A stretch of DNA of 64,000 nt, from contig NC_080672.1 in NCBI RefSeq assembly GCF_030247195.1, forward strand, positions 70,721,771 through 70,785,770. The letters are read 5' to 3'. Position numbers and translations under genes: made by a program. The notes beneath the pieces were generated by a model. That model was given only the letters and a program-made list of their open reading frames with translations. It was not told the DNA's origin and searched no databases. This DNA is from Topomyia yanbarensis. Taxonomy: Eukaryota; Arthropoda; Insecta; Diptera; Culicidae. This document shows, one piece after another, positions 4,757-14,526 of the stretch (positions within the stretch are counted from its first letter, which is position 1; each line of letters starts with the position of its first letter).

Positions 4757-6312
4757 AATCGGGAATTCATTAGTTTCTTTGGCTCAGGGTCAGGTCCGAG
4801 GGTCAGCAAGGCTATTTTTTAAAAAAATTTCAACGTCTAGCTTTAAGTCTGGCATTTTTATAGCTCGTATAGACTAAAACTTATATGCAAACCCTTCGAA
4901 GTCATTTTGGTATGGTAATGGCCATATCCGGGAATCTTGGAACCAGTTCCGGGGGACCTAGTAAATCCGAAATGCGCTATCTTTACCAAAAGACATCAAA
5001 TCTTACAAATTTTCATTAAAAATACACAACGATGTAAATTGGATGCTCATAGACTGGACCCTTTCTGAAGTATCTGGGACATCCAAGAACCGATTCCGAG
5101 CGATTTCCTAGAACCGATTTTCGGAAACAGCAAGCCTTATCTACGAAATAATTGAAAAAACACGTACCTGCCACGCGGCACATCCAATTATATCAGCTTG
5201 ATGATTCATGAACAATGCTGTCTGGTACTAGGTCATCTGGACATATGGGGACACTTTACGACCGGTTCCGGACTTTTCGGAATCCGGTTCTTCGACCCAA
5301 ACATTTTTGGTGAATATGCCTGTCATGTGGCACATCAAATCATCCGGCCACAAAGATACTTTTCGGATGTTCCTGAATCCGGTGCATCAGACCAATAAAA
5401 GTAATGTGAGATTATTCACCAAAAATGTTTTATCCGATGAACCGGACTCTGGAATAACTGGAACCGGTCGCAAAGTGTCCTGGTGTGCCCAGCTGAGCTA
5501 AACCGTGATTGAATTTCTCATAAATCGTCAAGCTGATGTAATTTGTTGTGCCGCATGACAAGTATATTCACCAAAAATGTTTGGTCCATTCCGGAATATC
5601 CGAAACCGGTCGTAAAGTGTACCCGTATGTCTAGATGACCTAAACCAGGATTGCATTGTTCATAGATTATTGAACTGATATAGTTTTCTGTGCCGCATGA
5701 CAGGCATATTCATTAAAAATGTTTGGTCCGGATAATCGGATTCCGAAACATCCGGAAACGGTCGTAAAGTGCCCCTGTATGTCCAGATGACCTGAAACAA
5801 GACGGCATTGTTCATACATCATCAAGCTGATATAATTTGATGTGCCGTATAACAGTTATATGTTCCTTCAGTTATTTCGTAGGTAAGGTTTGCTGTTTCT
5901 GGAAATCAGTTCCAGGAAATCTCTCGGAATCGGTTCTTGGATTCCTGGATGCTTCCGAAAGGGTCCAGTCTATGAGCATCCAATTTGCATCGTTGTGTAT
6001 TTTTCATGAAAATTTGAAATATTTTATATGCCTTTTGGTGAAGTTAGCGCATTTCGGATTTACTAGGTCCCCCGGAACCGGTTCCAAGATGCCCGGATAT
6101 GGCCATTAGCATCCCAAAATGATTTTGAAGGGTCTGCATATAAGTTTTGATCATGTACGGGCTCTAATACCAGGCTTAAAGCTAGACATTTCAAAATTAA
6201 ACAAAATAGCTTAAATGACCCTCGGACAGACCCTACAGAATTTCCGTATAAATCCGGAACCGGTTATCTGATCTATACAACCAAAGAAACTTGAATGAAT
6301 TCCCGGTCGTTT
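4757..6312. mobile_element. fold-back element with long inverted arms and ~185 bp internal repeats
   Basis: The left arm (about 4757-5155) and right arm (about 5865-6312) are inverted copies that I judge close to 90% identical over the best 230 bp (4926-5155 versus 5865-6110). Shared stretches include ACCTAGTAAATCCGAAATGC and TTGGATGCTCATAGACTGG. Between them are three direct ~185 bp units (about 5405-5865), each with AAAAATGTTTGGTCC-like, GGTCGTAAAGTG-like and GTCCAGATGACC-like blocks, and one inverted unit (about 5160-5345). Outer ends share CGGGAATTCATT. No transposase is present, so any movement would need an outside enzyme. The superfamily cannot be told from the ends. Confidence 0.75.
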
Positions 6313-8740: not shown

Positions 8741-8834
8741 TGTTGTGGCATACCCAAAAACGAGGGCGGCATAAAAACACAACTCAACTGTAACAAACAA
8801 AATATACCGCTGCCGAGAATAACGAACGACCGCC
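8741..8834 (+). repeat. LTR-like sequence, left piece, split by the gypsy insertion
   Basis: TGTTGTGGCATACCC opens a block that is interrupted at 8834 by the gypsy element and resumes at 14527. Rejoined, it would be about 500 bp, beginning TGTTGT and ending CTACAACG, with a TATA box and poly(A) signal in its second part. That suggests a solo LTR. I found no flanking duplication, so this stays tentative. Confidence 0.4.
8830..8834. repeat. target site duplication CCGCC (left)
   Basis: CCGCC immediately precedes the 5' LTR and recurs at 14522-14526 immediately after the 3' LTR, which fixes both element boundaries. Five-base duplications fit Ty3/gypsy integrases. Confidence 0.9.
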
Positions 8835-9064
8835 TGTAGAGTCCTCAAAATTCATACGCCCTTTGCATTCGTTAGGAGTGGTAGCTTGATAGGTTGGCAA
8901 CGCTGATGACAGGCCGGCTAGTAGAGATCCGTGTAGAGTTTTCGGTAGAGAGAAGACAAGCGAGAAGAGTGAGTGAACAGTGTGTTGAGCATCAGGAGGA
9001 ACATAAACGGACTTGTAAATAAGAAAACGATATTTTGATTTGGATTCCGAAACCAGACTTTACA
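8835..9064 (+). repeat. 5' LTR
   Basis: 230 bp, TG...CA ends, identical by eye to the 3' LTR. I see no good TATA box inside, so transcription may start from an initiator-type promoter. Confidence 0.95.
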
Positions 9065-9066
9065 TT

Positions 9067-9079
9067 TGGCGACGAGGAT
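9067..9079 (+). promoter_or_regulatory. primer-binding site, tRNA-Ser type
   Basis: TGGCGACGAGGAT starts three bases after the LTR. TGG pairs with the CCA tail, and the rest is complementary to the CCTCGTCG acceptor end of insect tRNA-Ser(GCU) as I recall it. Minus-strand DNA synthesis would start here. Confidence 0.8.
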
Positions 9080-9447
9080 CCAAATTAAAATGTTTTTATA
9101 GTTCGTGTTTTGAAGATCGGTCGGAAAAAAAATTAGGTTATAGCTGGCGGAAGCTTGGAAAAAGTGATTGTGAAAAGAAAAGGGGTACAGTTTCTGCCCT
9201 CGATTCACAGTGAAAGGTAAGCAGTGAGGTTATGTGTAAAATTGGAAGCTTTTGAAAAGCTTCGGAAATAGCATAAGTGGCTATCGTCGTTATTGTTGTT
9301 ATGTCGCTATCTATTCTGAAATGGCCTTCAAGCAATAGGCGGGTTGAAGTTGGAAAAAGAAAGAGGATTGATTTTGTTGAGTAGAGGAAGCAGCGTTTTT
9401 TAAATGTGTTGGTGCGGTTATCGATGTTTCTGGATTGATGTGCGATG

Positions 9448-9737
9448 GGTTGTGTACCAGAGTGAAGTAATGTGTTTTTTTCTCTATAAAGTAGACATAT
9501 ATGGTTGTGTACCACATGAAGGAATTTTGGTTATGTACCATGAAAGGCGAAAGAGGAGGTGGTTGTGTACCCGAAAAAACAGGTCCTGGTTGTGTACCAC
9601 AAGGCGGAAAGAAATAGAATCATTGGTTGTGTACCAAATATAATTGTCGAAAGTGTTGTGTATACTATTTAAGCAGCGAAGGCTGTGAACCAGGTTATAT
9701 AAAGACAATGGCTGCCGTTTGGAATGGTTGTGTACCA
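9448..9737 (+). repeat. eight interspersed copies of GGTTGTGTACCA in the leader
   Basis: Copies start at 9448, 9503, 9529, 9561, 9588, 9625, 9681 and 9726. Five are exact; 9529 has ATG for GTG, 9561 ends CCC, and 9681 is GGCTGTGAACCA. Most carry a T before the first G, giving TGGT...ACCA with short inverted arms. Spacing is irregular (26-56 bp) and the spacers are unrelated, so this is not a simple tandem duplication. It looks like an array of protein- or RNA-binding sites. Confidence 0.85.
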
Positions 9738-9852
9738 CTGAAGAAAACATTTTGATTATGCATTGTGACAGCGTACCAAATAATATAAACAGTGAAGTAC
9801 AACAACAGAGATGATTAGCACCTTTTATTTAGTATATGTTCAGAACTTCAAG

Positions 9853-10106
9853 GTAAGCAAAAAAAAAAATAAATGGAAAAAAATTCACAGTATTCCTATC
9901 ATGGATAAAAGCTTTTCTCCTGTGTAAGTCAAATTTTGGTTCGGAGGCGAAATACAATTTAAACAAATTCAAAACAATATAGTATCACATCAAAGATGGA
10001 AATGAATAACAACAATAATGACGATAAATGGATTTATGATAAATGTATATTACAAAAAAATAAATAAATTGCATAATATTTTGTTTATATAAAATTTCAA
10101 ATATAG
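9853..10106 (+). other. possible leader intron
   Basis: A consensus donor CAAG|GTAAGC at 9852/9853 and an acceptor-like AAATATAG at 10106 bracket 254 AT-rich bases. Splicing would put an ATG at 9836-9838 in frame six codons upstream of the gag ATG. There is no polypyrimidine tract of note before the acceptor. This is a prediction only. Confidence 0.35.
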
Positions 10107-10107
10107 G

Positions 10108-11828
10108 ATGAGTGTACCAAGTCGTATCAAACCCTTCGATGTAAATATCGAAACTAGTAAACTACCATCGGAATGGGAAGTATGGAAACTGGATCTGGAA
10201 TCGTTTTTCATGGCACAGCATATTGACACACAGTCGGAAAGGCGAGCACAGTTAGCATATTTAGGTGGGCCGGGGCTTCAGGAACTATTGCGTCATCTAC
10301 CAGGTGTCAACCAAGTTCCCCATGTAACATTGAATCCTCCTTTTTACGATGTTGCTATCAGATGTCTCGACGAATATTTCGAACCTTTTCGTCGTAAGAC
10401 ATATGAACGTCACGTGTTCCATCAGATTACGCAATTTTCGGGTGAGCGGTTTGCAGATTTTGTAATGCGACTCCGCAAACAGATAGCAAGATGCGGTTAT
10501 GATGTAAACGTGGTTGACGAACTTATCGCAGACAGAATTGCGCAAGGCTGTGCGTCAGATGATTTGCGTACTAAACTTCTCCAGAAAGATAGAAGTCTCG
10601 AGGAAATTGTTGTTTTGGGAACAAGCATGGCTGAATCAGCCGAGCATTCCAAAAAGTTTTTTCCGTCTGTTTCGGCCAAAAATGAGTCTCAAGAAATAAA
10701 CAAAATTTCAGAAGGGGGCTCAAATTGGAAACCTCTAAACCCCAAACGAGAAGGCATGTTTCAGACTCGTTTCGAGAAACGTGTAAATGATCGTCAAACA
10801 GATCGTTTCATTTGCTACAGTTGTGGTCGAAGAGGCCATATTCAAAATAGCAGTGAGTGCCCAGCAAAGCGCACTAAATGTGCCAGTTGTGGAAGACCTG
10901 GCCACTGGGCCAAGAGATGCTACTCTCGTGTTGACACCCAGAAACGACGCCAACAATCACCTGGAAGAGGACCACCCCCGAAACGCATTCGTGCGATTGC
11001 CGAAGAAGTGAATAAACAGGGAACTACGAACTACATTTTTTACGCCATGGGTCGAAACGTATTCATGTTTAAAGTGGGTGGAGTTGATATACCGATGACT
11101 ATAGACTCAGGGGCCGACGCGAACGTGATTACATACGACATTTGGGAACAGATGAAAGAAGCTGGAGTGGATGTTTTCGAGATGAAAAGAGAAGTTGACC
11201 GAACTCTTATTGCGTACGCATCAAACCAACCGATGAAGATAATGGGTATGTTCCATGCCGAGATCGAAGCAGGAGATCGACGAACTTGCTCGAAATTTTA
11301 CGTCGTGGAAAATGGTCAACAGTGTTTGTTAGGTGACAAAACTGCAAAAGAACTACAAGTATTGAAGATCGGTTTCAATGTGAATTCAGTACATGCTAAA
11401 CCAGTGCGTCCTTTTCCGAAAATTCGAGGCGTTACCGTCGAAATCCCGATTGACAACAACATTCAGCCTGTCCAGCAGCCCTACCGGCGCCCACCGATCG
11501 CTATGGGGGAAGGCATTGGAATGAAGCTTCGCACATTACTGGAACAAGATATTATTGAACGTGTTACAGAACCATCACCCTGGGTCTCACCAATGGTACC
11601 GGTGACAAAAGATTCAGGCGAAATACGCCTATGTATCGACATGCGCCAGGCAAACAAAGCAGTAGTACGCGAGACCCATCCTTTGCCGCTAATTGAAGAG
11701 CTTCTGGGGTCGGTAAATGGCGCCGTGCGATTTTCTAAGATAGACATAAAGGAAGCCTACCACCAGGTGGAAATTTCAGAGAGATCCCGTCCGATTACTA
11801 CATTTATTACCAAATACGGACTTTTCAG
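10108..11828 (+). CDS. gypsy gag-protease-RT (first exon of gag-pol)
   Basis: The frame opens at ATG 10108 and encodes Gag, then protease, then the front of RT. Residues 1-215 are a capsid-like region (SEWEVWKLDLESFF near the start). Two zinc knuckles follow: CX2CX4HX6C from Cys236 and CX2CX4HX4C from Cys258. The aspartic protease active site is IDSGADANVI (Asp333). RT starts around residue 440 with SPWVSPMVPVTK and reaches the first catalytic aspartate block FSKIDIKEAYHQ. The frame meets TAA at 11830, but AG|GT at 11828/11829 is a donor-like site and the RT homology resumes in phase at 11987. Unspliced RNA would give a 574-residue product lacking most of RT and all of integrase. Gag and Pol share one frame, so no ribosomal frameshift is needed. 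Confidence 0.9.
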
Positions 11829-11986
11829 GTAATATGGAACGGTTTATACAAGTTAAATTTTCACTTTTCAAAATGAATTGGATTTTGTTTTAGTTTTAAA
11901 TAGAAGAACTTTTACCAAACCACTTTCGCTTATTTTGTTCTGTTTTTCTTTCTTTTTTTAAATACTATTATAATTTATTATACCAG
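11829..11986 (+). other. GT-AG intron-like segment inside RT
   Basis: 158 bp beginning GTAATA and ending TTATACCAG, with pyrimidine-rich TTTTTCTTTCTTTTTTT before the acceptor. It begins just before an in-frame TAA, and its length is not a multiple of three, so it cannot be read through. Removing it joins the RT frame with no lost or extra codon: the Arg codon is split 2+1, and RT homology continues with Tyr-Lys-Arg. Base composition is markedly more AT-rich than the exons. It is either a spliced intron or a very precisely placed insertion. Confidence 0.75.
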
Positions 11987-14258
11987 ATACAAACGTCTTA
12001 TGTTTGGTGTAAGGTGCGCGCCAGAGCTATTCCAGAAAGTCATGGAATCAATTCTGGCAGGCCTAGAAGGAGTCGTTGTATATCTCGACGACGTGATGGT
12101 TTTTGGTACAAATCAAAACGAGCACGATAGAAGGTTGGCGGATACACTGAAAAGATTAACTGAATACGACATTATGCTAAACGATCAAAAGTGCGTCTAT
12201 AACGTTGAATCACTAGAATTTCTTGGACATGTGCTATCTGCCAACGGTGTTCGACCGAAGGAAAGCAGGCTGGTTGCTATTCAACAGTTCCGGGAACCTC
12301 AAAACATATCGGAGCTGCGTAGCTTTTTGGGACTGGTATGTTACGTAGGTAGATTCATACCACACCTAGCTACCAAAACGAATTGTTTGAGACAATTGCT
12401 TCGTTCAGTAGTACCCTTCAAGTGGACGGAGAAAGAAAGTATGGCGTTTCAGTCAATAAAGTCGGCTATTTGCAAGATTGAAAATCTGGGATTTTTTAAT
12501 CCAAAAGATCTCACGAAACCTGTAACAGATGCAAGTCCAACTGGTTTAGGAGCTGTGCTTCTACAAGTTGATAAGAACGGACATACAAGGGTAATTGCTC
12601 TTGCGAGTAAAGCCATGACGGACCTTGAAAGAAAGTACTTCCAGACCGAAAGGGAAGCGCTCTCTCTTGTATGGGGAGTCGAAAAGTTTCGACTATATCT
12701 ACAAGGCACAAAATTCGTATTAATGACTGATTGTAAGGCACTTAAGTTTCTATTTAGCACCAGATCGAAACCCTGCGCAAGAATTGAGCGATGGGTCCTC
12801 CGATTACAAGCTTACACTTATGACGTGGAACACATTCCTGGAAGTGCCAATATCGCAGATGCAATCTCGAGACTGTCTACGTCTTCTGCTCAAGCCTTTG
12901 ATCAGTCCACCGATATGTGCGTTCGACTTGTCGCTGAAAGTTCGGCACCAGTTGCAATAAAATATGACAAAATTATAGAGGAAACCAATAACGATGCGGT
13001 TATTCAAAAAGTTTTGACGAACTTACAATCAATGTCGATTGATGAGATCCCCAAAGAATTCAAACCATTTACAAATGAACTTTGTGGCCTTGATGGGGTT
13101 CTGCTTAGAGGAAATAAACTGGTGATTCCCTCATCTCTTCGAGAACGAGTTCTCGAATTAGCACACGAAGCACATCCTGGGATAGCTGCTATGAAACGAA
13201 GATTACGGCAAAAAGTGTGGTGGACAGGTATCGATAAAAATGCTGAAGATTTCGTGAAAAATTGCAAGCAATGTATATTGGTTGGTTCACTTGGAGTACC
13301 AGAGCCACTTCGTCGGACGAAAATGCCGGAAAAGCCGTGGACAGACATTGCAGTTGATTTTATGGGACCACTTACCTCCGGTCACTCAATATTTGTCATG
13401 GTCGACTACTACAGTAGGTTCACAGAGGCAGTAGTGATGAAGCAAACGACTACAAAACTAATGATTGAGGCACTACATGAAACCTTTTGTAGGTTCGGTA
13501 TACCGGAAACTATTCGGTCTGACAATGGTCCACAATTTATAAGCGAAGAACTAAAATCATTTTGCGACCAATACGGCATAGAATTATTAAAAACGACACC
13601 ATATTGGCCACAGGCAAATGGTGAGGTAGAGAGAGCGAACCGAACCATACTCAAACGTCTAAAAATCAGTAAATCTTCAGGATCTGCAGATTGGTTATGG
13701 GACTTGCGATCATTTCTTCTCATGTATAATTCGACTCCACATGCAACCACAGGCGTACCACCATCTCAACTGATGTTTGGCCGCATTTTGCGGGATAAGA
13801 TTCCAGTTTTTAGAGAAAAGGCGGGACGCGTTGATGAAGAGGAAATACGAGACCGCGACTGGTCAAATAAGATTAAAGGAGCGGAATATACGGACACACG
13901 ACGGAGAGCAAAACAATCTGTTTTCAAGGTAGGTGATATAGTTGTTTCAAAGCGCATGATAAAGGACAATAAGCTGTCCAGCACCTACGAACCTGAGGAA
14001 TATGAGATTGTGAGTTTGGACGGTTCAGAAGCATCTTTGCGAGCTCTGAAAACAGGTAGAACTGCTAAACGAAACGTCGCTCATTTGAAAATTTTCCCCC
14101 ACATTAAACAAGCAGAAGCAGCAATCACCAGTAACGGAAACGTTACGATAGAAAATATAACTCCTGGACAACTAGAGCAAACTGATCCAGATACTGTGCA
14201 GGACCGGCCAATACGCACTCACCGAAAGCCTATGTATCTAAACGAATATCGTACGTAA
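11987..14258 (+). CDS. gypsy RT-RNase H-integrase (second exon of gag-pol)
   Basis: The frame is in phase with the upstream gag-pol if the 158 bp segment is spliced out; the first internal ATG is at 12000. Numbering from that ATG, RT carries the catalytic YLDD box (Asp30-Asp31) followed by LEFLGHVLS. RNase H has TDASPTGLGAVLLQ near Asp177 and REALSLVWGVEKFRLYL. Integrase has an HHCC zinc region (HPGIAAMKRRL to CKQC, about 388-422) and the D,D-35-E core: AVDFMGP near 449, SDNGPQF near 507 and GEVERAN near 543. The C-terminus ends just before the polypurine run. All catalytic motifs are intact, so with the upstream exon it could encode a working Pol. Confidence 0.92.
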
Positions 14259-14282
14259 AAAGTGTTGTAGGATAGTAAAGTC

Positions 14283-14291
14283 AAGGGGGGA
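14283..14291 (+). promoter_or_regulatory. polypurine tract
   Basis: AAGGGGGGA abuts the 3' LTR and would prime plus-strand DNA synthesis. Confidence 0.85.
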
Positions 14292-14521
14292 TGTAGAGTC
14301 CTCAAAATTCATACGCCCTTTGCATTCGTTAGGAGTGGTAGCTTGATAGGTTGGCAACGCTGATGACAGGCCGGCTAGTAGAGATCCGTGTAGAGTTTTC
14401 GGTAGAGAGAAGACAAGCGAGAAGAGTGAGTGAACAGTGTGTTGAGCATCAGGAGGAACATAAACGGACTTGTAAATAAGAAAACGATATTTTGATTTGG
14501 ATTCCGAAACCAGACTTTACA
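14292..14521 (+). repeat. 3' LTR
   Basis: 230 bp, identical by eye to 8835-9064. It is followed directly by the CCGCC duplication. Confidence 0.95.
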
Positions 14522-14526
14522 CCGCC
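14522..14526. repeat. target site duplication CCGCC (right)
   Basis: This matches 8830-8834 and defines the right boundary of the gypsy insertion. Confidence 0.9.

Follow-up and report, generated by a model that had tools for sequence, protein, structure and literature searches.

A putative spliceosomal intron within the reverse transcriptase of a mosquito Ty3/gypsy lineage, and its possible role in setting the Gag to Pol ratio

How can a retrotransposon that appears complete produce its polymerase when its reading frame is stopped in the middle of the reverse transcriptase (RT)? The question is raised by a 64,000-nucleotide stretch of the Topomyia yanbarensis genome (C3:70721771-70785770 of the 1.17-Gb assembly that was searched; hereafter the window), which carries an intact Ty3/gypsy element at positions 8835-14521 of the + strand. 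The element has long terminal repeats (LTRs), a target-site duplication (TSD), a primer-binding site (PBS) and a polypurine tract (the last two read from the sequence), together with the domain order protease-RT-RNase H-integrase, and its RT is split by a short segment with the features of an intron. We consider it likely that this segment is a spliceosomal intron, old within its mosquito Ty3/gypsy lineage, whose partial splicing would set the ratio of Gag to Pol.

The segment (11829-11986) is 158 bp long and 77% A+T, starts with GTAATA and ends with ATACCAG, and is flanked by CTTTTCAG upstream and ATACAAACG downstream. It separates the first catalytic Asp of RT (codon 11743-11745, in the first open reading frame, ORF1) from the YLDD box (12081-12092, in exon 2). 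The ORF1 stop (TAA, 11830-11832) sits within the donor (AG/G TAA), the donor being itself the stop codon; the frame reopens at 11987 in phase 2 and remains open to 14258, and the segment holds stops in all three frames. A scan of donors at 11780-11869 and acceptors at 11930-12029 yielded five frame-keeping GT...AG pairs, of which 11829/11986 is the only one preserving the GLFR-YKRL conserved in relatives. The initial annotation, made from the letters of the window, had proposed an AT-rich GT...AG segment of 158 bp between the first catalytic Asp and the YLDD box, whose excision restores the frame and whose retention halts translation at once: the bounds were right to the base, the frame resumes as GLF-R-YKRL as in the relatives, and the stop codon lies inside the donor.

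Near-identical copies indicate the template used by the element. The segment was found at five places of the genome (four at 100%, one at 99%), the end of exon 1 at 13 and the start of exon 2 at seven, the same five copies appearing at 99-100% in each search. All five copies recovered by the exon searches (at least 99%) have the segment in the same position, and none of the eight more distant exon-1 loci matched the window intron. Both LTRs were located in four of the five copies: the window copy, whose LTRs are identical, as the initial annotation had it, over 230/230 positions between duplicated CCGCC; the copies at C3:78.07 Mb (TSD ATACA) and C3:198.5 Mb (GGACC), each with 0/230 LTR differences; and the copy at C1:25.0 Mb (GAAAG, 1/230). 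The stretch retrieved for the fifth copy does not take in its 5' LTR and leader. The four are separate recent insertions with TSDs of their own, all with the segment, and their template was therefore unspliced RNA, in line with the earlier claim that unspliced RNA is what is packaged. About 96 additional bases sit just within exon 2 of the copy at C3:78.07 Mb, and L024, an older, internally deleted relative that is 93% like the window element in exon 2, keeps only the last 25 bases of the intron.

Searched at the protein level with the protease-RT piece, the genome yielded 143 scored matches from 4441 candidates, and 93 of the matches were examined (L036-L125, L013, L016 and L034). Clade members, defined by an RT-tail identity of at least 64%, comprise 47 rows, and the 45 assessable loci (without L067 and L083) fall into 15 clusters at 85% DNA identity. 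A donor AG/GTAA or AG/GTAG ends the frame at the same codon in 41/45 loci and 13/15 clusters (CAG/GTA followed by A or G), and the exon-2 frame resumes 63-172 bp downstream in 38 of these 41; in L037, L070 and L096, sequence has been added or lost at the segment. Acceptors were seen in most of the listed loci and in one locus each of the 13 families. The search for sibling copies proposed with the initial annotation thus finds the segment in 5/5 copies and in 12 further families, with introns of differing length. GT...AG ends, a removal that keeps the exon frame and a position that is kept while length and sequence drift (63-172 bp) fit a U2-type spliceosomal intron. The 43 loci with the segment or with its clean absence form one clade, together with L049 and L075 only (support 99, one change), and 36 of the 46 rows below 64% identity are continuous at the site. 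Between the window element and L011, L013 and L014, synonymous differences (pS 0.84-0.88) are saturated and nonsynonymous differences (pN) amount to 0.19-0.26 in both exons, with no stops. The segment is retained while synonymous sites are saturated, and exon 2 is as constrained as exon 1 in three of five comparisons. The intron appears useful, since elements copied through RNA should shed introns and yet this clade keeps one through synonymous saturation.

Two further intron sites were found in the RT of sister groups in the same genome; the site of the window is called A and the others B and D. At site B (AAAG/GTAAG..., phase 1), ten bases upstream of the window site, the intron occurs in L077, L078, L079 and L085, the acceptor of L085 not being recognisable. 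At site D (phase 0, ...K/VL..., behind the YxDD box) it occurs in 13 loci of seven kinds by donor and length (about 82-156 bp): L076, L081, L082, L084, L086, L087, L092, L093, L100, L101, L107, L110 and L122, the acceptors of L107 and L122 not being clean. The D donors are GTACTG, GTAAAA, GTAAAT, GTAGAG, GTAGCT, GTACAA and GTATAT. The smallest split holding the D loci (support 98) also includes the intronless L072 and L073 and five non-assessable loci. Since the tree needs one change for A, one for B and two for D (a gain and a loss, or two gains), the three introns are separate events, unless introns slid. The protein records P0230, P0233, P0234, P0238 and P0240 also end at the D site. The starts of the unnamed records P0010, P0015, P0023, P0025 and P0034 resemble intron read-through before QVEIS; a possible fourth site, C (FHQ/VEIS), is suggested by these protein starts only.

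Protein records were searched with each exon. Among the best 120 of 225 matches to exon 1, 102 are at least 57% identical; 84 of these stop one residue beyond the junction, 13 continue through it (a scripted class that wrongly includes P0228, of type B by its tail) and five are truncated in other ways. The 13 continuing records are all NCBI-named and come from Armigeres, Aedes albopictus, Wyeomyia, Topomyia and Toxorhynchites; the 24 NCBI-named relatives listed at this threshold comprise these 13, seven that end at the donor stop and four otherwise truncated. P0203, named 'isoform X2', ends at the donor stop, and its X1 partner would be the spliced form. Since the same codon is interrupted in 13 genome families and in 84/102 listed relatives, the segment is not due to chance.

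Exon 2 gave a matching picture from the other side of the junction. Among the best 120 of 674 matches, 13 are at least 60% identical, and none of these 13 spans the junction: 11 start at the first Met behind it (LMFG motif), P0003 has its start within intron-like read-through (MFVNI-R-YKRLMFG), and the start of P0004 lies further on. The 52 listed rows that extend 45 or more residues upstream all have less than 60% identity. Full single-frame Gag-Pol proteins were excluded from both searches by length limits and are covered by a third one (7995 candidates scored; best 120 of 1162 matches, 111 of them new). Of the 111 new listed records, 108 run uninterrupted through the junction, two (P0251 and P0294) begin downstream of it, and P0252 gave no collinear alignment. 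On a protein tree of 235 rows, counted on 205 (without 24 mosquito gene models and six unclear rows), the interrupted state needs three changes, which we read as the gain in the clade, P0226 (type B, wrongly included in an 'A' class) and P0246. The named records in these listings are mostly insects, and a scan of Viral_contigs with the exon-1 piece gave two pattern matches and no relatives.

The donors point to how the intron may act. A G at donor position +5 is present in only one of 13 families at site A and in none of the seven kinds at site D (together 1/20), as against 11 of 13 host myosin introns. This control was taken from the same genome, where 75 matches gave 16 hand-picked neighbouring pairs, mostly with short gaps, and 13 were kept as having exactly one gap-free GT...AG pair that keeps the profile frame. 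The missing +5 G is as would be expected of inefficient splicing. In addition, a stop lies within the donor in 13/13 families at site A, and at site D the unspliced frame meets a stop at the third intron codon in 5/7 kinds, where a composition of 75% A+T would predict about 9% for each codon.

We propose that the intron would have been gained once, in the ancestor of the clade, and kept as the families diverged. Unspliced RNA would be both the genome and the message from which Gag-protease carrying an RT stub is made, with the donor doubling as the stop codon of that message, and the fraction spliced at the weak donor would yield full Gag-Pol; weak donors would keep much of the RNA unspliced, so that Gag would exceed Pol. 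The intron-containing RNA would need to be exported, and the switch would be absent from any copy made of spliced RNA, a possible reason why clean losses are rare and decayed. The weak donors, the stop in or just after the donor and the separate gains all suggest a role in balancing Gag against Pol; we infer that cells do splice the RNA, that they do so only in part, and that selection maintains the resulting ratio.

Several observations weigh against this proposal. The Fisher test values for the +5 G against the host control (p = 2e-4 for A, 5e-4 for D) come from trials that are not independent, because families share ancestry, and from a small control of hand-picked pairs in one gene family. 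Weak donors are not general, because the site B donors have the +5 G in 2/2 kinds, and the donor stop is partly expected, because a normal donor is GTAA. In many of the more distant relatives Gag-Pol is a single open frame, so that such elements need no intron in general; the suggestion of the initial annotation that splicing replaces a frameshift is thereby left unsupported. P0246 is a single frame of 1260 aa within the clade, the sole unnamed continuous record placed there among the matches listed, and could stem from RNA or from an intronless copy. Within the genome, 50 of the 143 matches fall outside the examined set, L067 and L083 are not among the assessable clade loci, L049 has lost the donor, the donor of L075 was not seen, and exon-2 stops number three in L017 (family L053) and six in L034.

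Two of the 45 clade loci, L034 and L066, also tell against the proposal in being cleanly without the segment, and both are decayed. L034 is 95-97% like L035, which has the intron. L034 was first taken for a natural spliced retrocopy, a view that was dropped and is at most suggestive: two other stretches, of about 66 and 70 bp and neither of them GT...AG, are missing from the locus as well, and ACAG stands at both ends of its missing segment. L066 is decayed, with its nearest relatives only 75% alike. With these other deletions and the ACAG repeats in L034, and the decay of both loci, neither need be a spliced retrocopy. The unit common to L034 (1788-6251) and L035 (3065-7890) shares both ends, is mostly 95-98% alike and ends in an apparent fragment of another repeat; only L035 has the intron.

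The strong-looking donors of site B, the stop as a partial by-product of GTAA and the 108/111 continuous new records listed in the third search would all fit an intron that is real and a mere passenger, spliced efficiently and constitutively, with the ratio set otherwise (e.g. by degradation of Pol) and the genomic copies keeping it solely through the packaging of some unspliced RNA. We regard this as unlikely, because the +5 G is missing in 19/20 kinds at sites A and D and present in 11/13 host introns, because this one stretch of RT gained introns at separate sites, and because a useless intron would be easily lost via RNA, yet only the two decayed loci out of 45 are cleanly without it. Far less probable is a dead insertion in defective copies moved by enzymes supplied in trans. 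The unspliced message alone does stop inside RT, and identical young copies could be trans-mobilised, but neither the position nor the bounds would then be expected to recur at the same codon in 13 families, with GT donors and varied lengths, and the exons on both sides are constrained in L011, L013 and L014 at synonymous saturation. Equally improbable is an RT made as two chains, the downstream frame being translated from the ATG of the LMFG motif. Although 11 of the 13 listed exon-2 relatives at 60% identity or more start at that Met, ORF callers treat any intron in this way, such a start would cut RT within the palm, and the GT...AG ends, the lengths of 63-172 bp and the reading of P0003 from intron-like sequence into YKRLMFG would be left unexplained; the stops in all frames and the conserved position led us to reject it. 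Read-through of the stop codon or frameshifting across the segment, to which a stop directly behind a conserved frame would be suited as at recoding sites, is the least credible of all and was rejected, since stops occur in 3/3 frames of the segment, whose position is conserved and whose length varies between families regardless of frame.

Table 1 Features of the Ty3/gypsy element in the window, with the predicted intron.
Feature	Position	Strand	Basis
Target-site duplication CCGCC, left copy	8830..8834	.	sequence
5' LTR, 230 bp, TG...CA	8835..9064	+	sequence comparison
Leader, 1043 bp, 26 upstream ATGs	9065..10107	+	sequence
Candidate primer-binding site, 13 nt	9067..9079	+	sequence
ORF1: Gag with CCHC knuckle, protease, N-terminal half of RT	10108..11832	+	ATG 10108, TAA 11830-11832
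Predicted phase-2 spliceosomal-type intron, CAG/GTAATA...ATACCAG/A, T at +5	11829..11986	+	sequence
Exon 2: C-terminal half of RT, RNase H, integrase	11987..14258	+	open frame, domain matches
Polypurine tract AAGGGGGGA, adjoins the 3' LTR	14283..14291	+	sequence
3' LTR, identical to the 5' LTR	14292..14521	+	sequence comparison
Target-site duplication CCGCC, right copy	14522..14526	.	sequence

The remaining features of the element are listed in Table 1. The protease match is weak (E 0.006, under the cut-off of Pfam), and the 13-nt candidate PBS would fit the 3' end of tRNA-Ser. In the leader, a strong donor-like AAAG/GTAAGC stands at 9217, and the gag ATG is immediately preceded by an acceptor-like ATATAG with its end near 10106; these sites and the 26 upstream ATGs hint at a possible second intron in the leader. 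The leader also holds, at 9448-9736, six exact copies of GGTTGTGTACC within 290 bp, all on the + strand, plus two near copies; with at most two mismatches, the count over the whole window is 17 versus 11.5 by chance, which is not far above. Outside the element, large nested inverted repeats lie at 5000-6022 of the window (five pairs, arms of 44-259 bp, 75-91% complementary).

The closest known parallel is with Ogre, a legume Ty3/gypsy element in which, according to passages of three papers, partial splicing acts on an intron that parts Gag-protease from the remainder of Pol (PMC6317226, PMC3735527, PMC12786077); this intron lies between protease and RT, with a mean of 274 bp between the ORFs in the passages of PMC6317226. 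In the window element, likewise, a Gag-protease frame and a frame for the rest of Pol are parted by a predicted intron. Unlike that of Ogre, which was compared by description, the intron of the window clade lies inside RT, measures 63-172 bp, has a donor that is the stop codon and belongs to an insect host. In Drosophila copia, the animal case described in these papers, splicing removes about 2.9 kb of pol and the spliced RNA gives Gag only (as described in part of PMC3735527). On the same description, the window element resembles copia as an animal LTR retrotransposon in which splicing would shift Gag versus Pol (PMC3735527), and differs from this Ty1/copia element in that it would need splicing for Pol, the opposite direction. 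Alternative introns regulate Gag and Gag-Pol in the plant Ty1/copia elements BARE1 and EVADE (passages of PMC12786077 and PMC3735527). In these accounts the BARE1 intron lies in gag and that of EVADE removes protease, splicing giving a short Gag message, unlike the RT intron of the window.

Retroviral splice sites are suboptimal, and retroviral splicing yields downstream mRNAs such as env, whereas splicing of the window element would complete Pol. As in retroviruses and Cer1-type elements, whose intron-containing genomic RNA must be exported (PMC10309623), export of such RNA would be needed here. With regard to its affinities, the window element is like the Mag lineage in its putatively tRNA-Ser-like PBS and in that some Mag families are listed with two ORFs; our guess, made from such features without a reference tree, is that it belongs there. 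Mag elements of insects, including Culex cqgypsy_8, have a PBS for tRNA-Ser or tRNA-Leu and one or two ORFs, and the passages of this Culex survey mention introns for host genes only and none inside elements (PMC3286476). Searches of open-access papers, judged by titles and the starts of abstracts and leaving subscription papers and repeat databases outside, listed no report of such introns in insect elements. Within these sources, what is new would be the insect case and the convergent gain, the control of Gag versus Gag-Pol by partial splicing being already known from Ogre.

It seems to us rather probable that mosquito Ty3/gypsy elements evolved a splice switch separately, at two RT sites in one genome and perhaps at a third: a weak intron with a stop in its first codons, by which a single transcript is shared out between an unspliced genome and Gag-protease message and a spliced Gag-Pol message. 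If this is true, animals would have a counterpart to the Ogre strategy, and the convergent introns would be regulators and not relics. With introns at separate sites in related clades of a single genome, their gain and retention can be studied comparatively. There is also a warning for annotation: pipelines may break such elements up or drop them as defective, and their full proteins could be taken for host genes. For the elements themselves, this lineage would provide a natural and testable case in which the efficiency of splicing controls the Gag to Pol ratio in animals.
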